This document shows positions 29,620 to 47,364 of a stretch of DNA of 49,116 nt, in pieces. The notes under the pieces are model-generated. The model was not told the DNA's origin, did not search any database, and saw only the letters and a program-made list of their open reading frames with translations. The position numbers and the translations under genes were made by a program. Position 1 is the first letter of the stretch, and the number at the start of each line of letters is the position of its first letter. This stretch comes from an uncultured bacterium (lineage in GTDB: Bacteria; Patescibacteriota; Minisyncoccia; Phycocordibacterales; CAIRYW01), in assembly GCA_903882905.1 (NCBI GenBank), contig CAIRYW010000004.1, forward strand, positions 1 to 49,116. The letters are read 5' to 3'.

Positions 29620-30828
29620 CTATTCTATCACGCCACCACCTATGCAAACATCTTTGTCATAAATAACAATTGATTGACCTGAGGCAGATGTTTGAGGCTC
29701 ATCAAATTCTACGATCCATGATTCTTCTGGTCGGCAAGGACCGTCCTTAATACCGCAATCTCCAAGGAAGGTCCTTGCCGATCTTGAAAGCCTAACTTTT
29801 TGGTATTTTTGGTGATATCTAATCTGGGCGGTGTATATCTTCCCTTCTTCTGGAATTTCATTTATCCAATTCGCATTTGTAATGGTTATTTTTTTTTCAA
29901 TCCTACCTGATTCATTTTCTAAATCATCTTTTGTACCAACTGTAATTGCATTTGTCTTTTGATCTTTTGAGATGACATAAAAAGGAACATCTTCTGTTGT
30001 TTTTTTTGTGATTATAAATCCATGCCTTTCTCCAATTGTAAAAAATACAGCGCCATCATGGGTTCCAATTTGTTCACCTGTTTTATTAAACACAATTCCA
30101 CTTTTTGATTTTATGTAATGCGAAAGAAAATCTTTCATATCAACATCACCTAAAAAACAAATACCTTGGCTGTCTTTTTTTTCTGCGTTAGGTAATTTTA
30201 TTTTTTTTGCAATTTTTCTAACCTCAGATTTTTTTAAATGTCCAATTGGAAATATAATTTTGGAAAGTTGATCCTGAGTTAATGTCCAGAGAAAGTAACT
30301 TTGTTCCTTTTCTGGATCAATTGCTTTGCACAAATTTCTCCTCAAGTTCGTACCTCTCTCCGCTGCGCTCCGTGAGGAACGACCTTTTCCCGAAATTTGT
30401 TTGACGTCAGTTAACTCCTTTTGCGAAATTTGTGCATAGTGTCCTGTTGCGACAAAATCTGTCCCCATTTCTACAGCCTTTTTTAAAAAAGCACCAAACT
30501 TTATTTCTTTGTTGCACATTACGTCGGGATTGGGAGTTCTTCCTTTTTTGTATTCGGAAATCATGTAGTCTGCAACATTTTCCTTGTATTCCTTTTCTAA
30601 ATCAATAGTCACAAATGGGATACCAAGATGCGCTGCGACTCTCATTGCATCTCGCCTTTCTTCTTTCCATGTGCATTCAAGCCATTCAGGTGTCCATGTT
30701 TTAATAAAAGCTCCGACAACCTTATAACCTATTTTTTTAAGTAAGTGTGCAGATACTGCAGAATCAACACCTCCAGAAAGGCCGACGAAAACTGTCTTAT
30801 TGACTTTGTTGTTTTTTGGTTCTAGCAT
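29620..30828 (-). CDS. mnmA: tRNA-specific 2-thiouridylase with two palindromic in-frame insertions
   Basis: 402 residues. Thiolates U34 of tRNA Glu, Gln and Lys. ATP pyrophosphatase P-loop GLSGGVDSAVSAHLL (~16-30), catalytic Cys105 in NPDVMCNKEIKFG and Cys224 in GICFLG, both present. Two stretches have no counterpart in normal MnmA: residues ~137-166, which contain DVKQISGKGRSSRSAAERG between TGHYAQ and CKAIDPEKEQSYFLW, and residues ~348-368, containing ARTFLGDCGIKDGPCRPEE. Each is encoded by a palindromic DNA segment (see separate entries). Outside these the sequence is ordinary, so the enzyme may be functional. Confidence 0.95.
   Translation of the reverse strand: MLEPKNNKVNKTVFVGLSGGVDSAVSAHLLKKIGYKVVGAFIKTWTPEWLECTWKEERRDAMRVAAHLGIPFVTIDLEKEYKENVADYMISEYKKGRTPNPDVMCNKEIKFGAFLKKAVEMGTDFVATGHYAQISQKELTDVKQISGKGRSSRSAAERGTNLRRNLCKAIDPEKEQSYFLWTLTQDQLSKIIFPIGHLKKSEVRKIAKKIKLPNAEKKDSQGICFLGDVDMKDFLSHYIKSKSGIVFNKTGEQIGTHDGAVFFTIGERHGFIITKKTTEDVPFYVISKDQKTNAITVGTKDDLENESGRIEKKITITNANWINEIPEEGKIYTAQIRYHQKYQKVRLSRSARTFLGDCGIKDGPCRPEESWIVEFDEPQTSASGQSIVIYDKDVCIGGGVIE
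29731..29781. repeat. palindromic element inside mnmA (3' side)
   Basis: TCGGCAAGGACC (29731-29742) and GGTCCTTGCCGA (29770-29781) are perfect 12-bp inverse repeats with nested TCCTT/AAGGA inner arms. The segment is in frame and has higher GC than the rest of the gene. It encodes the extra C-terminal residues. Confidence 0.7.
30328..30435. repeat. palindromic element inside mnmA (5' side)
   Basis: The outer arms GCACAAATTT (30328-30337) and AAATTTGTGC (30426-30435) are exact inverse repeats. Inside are a further inverse repeat (GAGG-ACGA arms around CGGAGCGCAGCGGA) and a direct repeat, ACAAATTTCG. It encodes the extra residues ~132-167 of MnmA. Confidence 0.65.
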
Positions 30829-47312: not shown

Positions 47313-47364
47313 AATTCAAACTAAGAAAACACCTCCAAAAGGAGGTCTTTCCTTAGTTTGAATT
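47313..47364 (+). terminator. long hairpin between atpB and atpE
   Basis: Outer arms AATTCAAACTAAG (47313-47325) and CTTAGTTTGAATT (47352-47364), inner arms ACCTCC (47331-47336) and GGAGGT (47341-47346), loop AAAA. There is no clean T-tract after it, so it may be partial, acting as an attenuator or an RNA-stabilising element between the a and c genes. Confidence 0.5.

Follow-up and report, generated by a model that had tools for sequence, protein, structure and literature searches.

A probable mobile palindromic element translated in frame within mnmA of an uncultured patescibacterium

How did a palindromic segment come to be translated within the gene of a tRNA 2-thiouridine(34) synthase, and is it a product of the gene itself or of mobile DNA? 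The gene concerned, mnmA (trmU), is located at 29620-30828 on the minus strand of the window analysed, a stretch of 49,116 nucleotides that forms positions 1-49116 of contig C4 in the genome studied here (G000; 745,831 bases in 29 contigs, GC 0.341). Its reading frame of 402 aa is open throughout, as had been claimed, and the product scores above the curated cut-off of the TIGR00420 (trmU/MnmA) profile (E=1.6e-104). The PP-loop SGGVDS and the residues C105 and C224, which we take to be the catalytic cysteine pair, occupy invariant alignment columns, and MnmA has probably continued to function with the insert. Candidatus Yonathbacteria and Nomurabacteria MAGs are among the named relatives of the protein (52-55% identity), and the host is therefore probably a Paceibacteria/Parcubacteria lineage.

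The original prediction delimited the insert as 30328-30435 (minus strand), corresponding to residues 132-167 of MnmA, and described it as having exact outer arms, nested inverse arms and a direct repeat, all of which are present. The exact outer arms, GCACAAATTT (30328-30337) and AAATTTGTGC (30426-30435), reach 15 nt if one mismatch is allowed (30324-30338/30425-30439). Nested within them are arms of 27 nt (30330-30356/30374-30400, 74%), and a 15-nt direct repeat is found at 30386-30400 and 30419-30433. The segment also stands apart from its host in base composition, with a GC content of 0.47 compared with 0.36 for mnmA and 0.34 for the genome. The best inverted-repeat score of the segment was 12, a value reached by none of 2000 shuffles (p=0.0005). 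As the same score is attained by 0.7% of all 121-nt windows of this AT-rich stretch, the palindrome by itself is not overwhelming evidence.

The decisive evidence for a mobile element in MnmA is its dispersed homology. When the 108-bp insert was used as a query against 297 genomes of the order, its positions 4-71 (68 bp) matched contig C4 of genome G227 with 91% identity (E=3e-22). Further copies were found in G227, G157, G030, G226, G113, G147, G199 and G049 at 72-91% identity, and the matches in G151 were restricted to insert positions 62-101. While the predicted 108-bp segment is a real palindromic segment, the unit that is repeated is 71 bp long (30330-30400). It consists of two 8-bp arms, ACAAATTT (30330-30337) and AAATTTGT (30393-30400), adjoining a conserved core of 55 bp (30338-30392; CTCCTCAAGTTCGTACCTC...GAGGAACGACCTTTTCCCG), the minus-strand reading of which in MnmA is GKGRSSRSAAERGTNLR. 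This core was compared in detail in 14 copies from 7 genomes, both genic and intergenic. The rest of the segment (30401-30435, minus strand) combines an incomplete second copy of the element end with native codons (A-Q-I), and includes the outer arm AAATTTGTGC and the repeat of 30386-30400; the outer arms, as first described, take in these native codons. The direct repeat and outer arm of this copy probably arose because one element end was partially duplicated.

Several copies of the element are intergenic, for example the one directly 5' of murG in G157, and others are read in frame within unrelated genes. The 91% copy lies within rsmA/ksgA of G227, a genome from another family of the same order (TIGR00755 above cut-off), and leuS of G113 and leuS of G147 carry copies at different sites (TIGR00396 above cut-off). 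Another copy in G157 lies in frame in an ORF of 474 aa, which by eye is lamin-tail-domain (LTD)-like. The peptide GKG-x-SSR-x-x-x-ERG-x-x-LR is common to MnmA, the leuS product of G147 (L417) and this LTD-like ORF (L430); the core is read as LLKVAPLSASLREERPFP in ksgA and as APQGRTSSVASSSSRNDLFP in leuS of G113. Since the three types of reading differ, at least three reading frames of the core are in use, and the 55-bp core is open in most frames. Further members had been sought in other genes of the same genome. There the element is single-copy, with otherwise short chance-level matches, and the in-frame copies in unrelated genes are found elsewhere in the order. Recent local transposition is not evident, given this single copy, and the presence of one copy here compared with many in G227 suggests that the element arrived from another lineage. 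No exact match to a 27-nt stretch of the core was found in viral contigs.

Sites without the element were found in sister genomes. The MnmA proteins of G002 (63-70% identical) and G001 lack the 5' insert, in agreement with an insertion. Beside mnmA, empty sites could be read in ksgA only, where the sisters G157, G108 and G253 (66-78% protein identity) are without the element: FDF-KSLLKVAPLSASLREERPFPEI-FKIVANIPYY with the element corresponds to FDF-EEHGLKKSNY-KIVANIPYY in a sister. The ksgA element has thus taken the place of some residues and is not a pure addition.

On this evidence the 5' segment is best explained, with a probability of about 0.86, as a small mobile palindrome, non-autonomous and REP- or MITE-like, that was inserted in frame and acts like the palindromic elements of Rickettsia. 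The original prediction had proposed such a likeness, and the dispersed family, the in-frame copies in unrelated genes and the insert-free sisters all support it. An old hypervariable MnmA loop growing by slippage or local duplication, with palindromes formed by template switching and no mobile element, would account for the direct repeat within the segment and for the arms that equal native codons in two loops of the order (L021, L258). It is nevertheless an improbable origin for this insert, as local slippage could not produce the 68-bp copy in ksgA at 91% identity, nor the leuS and intergenic copies. That the outer arms should in every case repeat the native GHY-A-R/Q-I codons was also rejected as a general rule, the test being negative overall (permutation p=0.23 across the order).

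The arms of the mobile element differ from copy to copy. Perfect inverted repeats directly flank the core, and those of the other copies include GCGCTTG/CAAGCGC, AAATCT/AGATTT, TTAATG/CATTAA, AAATTT/AAATTT, TAACG/CGTTA, TAATG/CATTA and AATCG/CGATT. Perfect arms of at least 5 bp were found in 8 of the 14 copies compared with 4 of 182 mismatched flank pairs (permutation p=5e-5), some of them, such as AAATTT, being self-palindromic, where direct and inverted repeats are indistinguishable. The element would have made its arms from the target or chosen them at the target. The latter, insertion into a pre-existing palindrome, is a variant that is itself compatible with mobility. Were the core removed, perfect palindromes of 10-16 bp would be left in 8 of the 14 copies, and there are insertion sequences known to target REPs (PMC8450116). 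In ksgA of G157 and G108, however, the site has no palindrome at this position, though these sisters have diverged, and target choice seems possible but somewhat doubtful.

It had also been claimed that residues ~132-167 have no counterpart in the family. They are indeed far more extended here, but the loop itself is always present. The stretch from GHY to KDQSY comprises 42 aa in the query, 15-62 aa among 89 sequences of the order, and 19-20 aa in most of 61 outgroup sequences, which include a few other Patescibacteria with long loops. Long loops are common, and the inserted sequences are largely different from genome to genome; the same insert in many unrelated MnmA proteins, which would have marked an ancestral loop, was not found. 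The 58 distinct loops of at least 27 aa form DNA hairpins with a mean z of -3.15, compared with -0.59 in control windows of the same genes (p=5e-15), and z falls below -3 in 52% of them compared with 5% of control windows, fractions that are not population rates since the loci were chosen by match score, the last 40 partly by length, and since related genomes in the set are not independent. The fold of the query's own loop is modest (z -2.3). By eye, other loops contained a 21-bp stem (L025), compensating nested palindromes (L245, L248) or CCCCCTCTTAA hairpins (L017, L041). REPs of the GTCATTCCCGCG type were also noticed by eye in L275, L239 and L247.

The 15-62 aa span, the largely unrelated sequences and the simple tandem repeats of some loops (L242, L236, L264) again favour slippage, which may apply in other genomes where the loop consists of AT-rich tandem repeats. 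For the insert studied here it is largely refuted, and other loops hold classic dispersed REPs, for example GTCATTCCCGCG (L275, L239), that also form intergenic hairpins in G000.

The position of the inserts within the protein was examined in an AlphaFold2 model built from 46 sequences (mean pLDDT 88, pTM 0.85). The 5' insert models as a disordered loop, with residues 140-158 at pLDDT below 50 in a hairpin tip flanked by strands 132-137 and 163-168. A second insert, near the 3' end of the gene, falls in the block around residues 351-370 (pLDDT 55-60), which lies between strands 343-349 and 371-379; both inserts are thus predicted to lengthen beta-hairpin tips. The gene may tolerate the 5' insert because this loop is exposed, disordered and away from the active site. 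That strong hairpins recur at this one position of mnmA could also be attributed to selection for a function, either in the mRNA (pausing, stability or regulation) or as a protein loop. Such a role is very unlikely to explain the insert, given that sequence, length and strength vary between genomes, that the 28 loops of the order shorter than 27 aa show no hairpin excess, that the modelled loop is disordered, and that the same elements are also found between genes and in other genes.

With mobile insertion as the preferred reading, it may be asked whether MnmA is its only acceptor. Inserts were scarce in SerRS, Tgt and GatB, the proteins used as controls (best 30 each), and no strong hairpin was seen among them, with the exception of a 16-residue SerRS segment common to close relatives. 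Tgt and GatB loci picked for gapped matches, a sample that gives no rate, do carry hairpin inserts, and the process is thus not confined to MnmA. Between orthologues of G000 and G002, 40 indels of at least 9 residues were scored, four of which had z below -3, including the MnmA 3' insert and one in uvrC. The insertion process would seem to be general but rare, with MnmA as a favoured acceptor. One gatB gene (G051, L384) holds two strong hairpin inserts in frame (z -5.4 and -7.2). In another genome (G109, L366), a DUF559 endonuclease-like ORF (PF04480, E=1e-29) with CCTCCCC palindromes on its flanks lies in frame inside the tRNA-guanine transglycosylase gene. DUF559 was rejected as the driver of the present element, there being no PF04480 match in its own genome and only 18 of 98 genomes of the order having one.

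The following course of events may be proposed. A 55-bp core, open in most frames, would have entered MnmA at the tip of a beta-hairpin on the protein surface, between short inverted arms derived from, or selected at, the target; one end would later have been partly duplicated, producing the direct repeat as well as the second outer arm. An enzyme acting in trans would carry the non-autonomous palindrome into many places, and selection would retain those copies that lie in frame at exposed hairpin tips. This enzyme is most likely a RAYT/IS200-like transposase, a best guess based on the Y1_Tnp genes of this genome, which lie among two of its other palindrome families. More tentatively, mobile palindromes of Paceibacteria may combine a constant core with flanking repeats that are specific to each copy and inverted, not direct, being either made from the target or gained by insertion at hairpin tips, and may repeatedly colonise the beta-hairpin tips of proteins, MnmA being a hot spot for many families; this wider proposal is more speculative than the insertion itself and could well be wrong. 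If true, the core with copy-specific inverted arms would be a signature of transposition that, to our knowledge, is not known from named elements.

In-frame palindromes are established in Rickettsia (RPE; Ogata 2000, 2002, as summarised in PMC10969869, PMC4316617, PMC3767692). The present element resembles RPEs as a short palindrome family that occupies unrelated core genes in frame, as well as intergenic positions, with the reading kept open. The 5' element occurs at multiple unrelated sites and in frame in unrelated ORFs, and is missing from orthologues of both mnmA and ksgA. It differs in its phylum, in its length (71 bp compared with about 100-150) and in the copy-specific outer arms round a constant core. 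The likeness is of kind and not of sequence, and no membership in RPE-1 to RPE-10 is claimed. In several bacteria, GTAG/CGTC REPs are found within DNA-repair genes and within those of tRNA synthetases and pseudouridine synthases, and two Xanthomonas species carry different REPs at about the same recB site, a precedent for a hot spot (PMC3733652). Unlike these, one MnmA loop here hosts many families, and the present lineage is not mentioned in the passages concerned. A search by title and abstract, in a library with few subscription papers and no bioRxiv preprints, found no description of in-frame palindromes in Patescibacteria, consistent with the suggestion that the process is new for this lineage. 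The kind of element is known, then, the lineage and families are new, and the copy-specific arms are unusual. This widens the range of protein-coding palindromes beyond Rickettsia and a number of REP-rich bacteria, to a large radiation of uncultured organisms whose genomes are very small. The MnmA loop offers one well-defined site at which hundreds of genomes can be compared for mobile DNA becoming protein, and it warns that variation in protein length among Patescibacteria can derive from mobile DNA and not from lineage-specific domains.

The 3' insert of MnmA (29733-29779, about residues 350-366), which is absent from the MnmA of G002, belongs to a different family. It was matched (E=5.1e-5 genome-wide) by a covariance model (R1) of AAGGACC palindromes, for which seven members were used, all outside genes with a G002 homologue and not including the MnmA copy. 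The same model finds an in-frame copy in uvrC (C4:92253-92293), which G002 likewise lacks, and 13-mers of the family number 19 where about 1 is expected. Inverted AAGGACC palindromes flank a Y1_Tnp transposase gene (C21:27306-28010), and the family therefore looks like the REP of a RAYT, as in REPtrons (PMC2817692). The 5' element, unlike those systems, is of another family than AAGGACC and has a low copy number in this genome. Two hairpins of a further family (R2; TTGGAGG..CCTCTCAAGAGGAGG..CCTCCAA) lie outside G002-homologous genes at 1030-1072 (E=4.6e-8) and 47317-47360 (E=1.1e-5). The R1 and R2 models, with filters off, gave no match to the 5' insert. An assignment of that insert to the AAGGACC family came from a pattern loosened after the insert had been seen, and was rejected, as covariance models made without the insert miss it. 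R1 and R2 matches at C8:935-1891, C17:21081-21842 and C4:119467-120117, where no indel relative to G002 was shown, were not counted as insertions.

Other palindromes were noted in the same genome. A second Y1_Tnp gene (L387; C27:67287-67990) contains, in frame within the gene itself, two near-identical CTTGGAGGCTACGCCTCCAAG-type palindromes, and more copies lie close by both upstream and downstream. Palindromes of AAGGACCG lie within or beside inverted TTATCCACA, the DnaA-box consensus, at C21:15543, C21:27090-28005, C27:37044 and C4:93354, including those round the RAYT-like gene. REP hairpins of GTCATTCCCGCG are located outside long ORFs at C17:40032, C19:75577 and C19:76005. Thirteen pairs of CCCAGCAC...GTGCTGGG form hairpins with constant ends (C19:9.7-16.2 kb, C27:8182 and elsewhere), the inner stems of which are copy-specific, mostly long and perfect; four of these hairpins lead straight into the starts of type IV pilins (AGFTLIE/AGFSLIE type).
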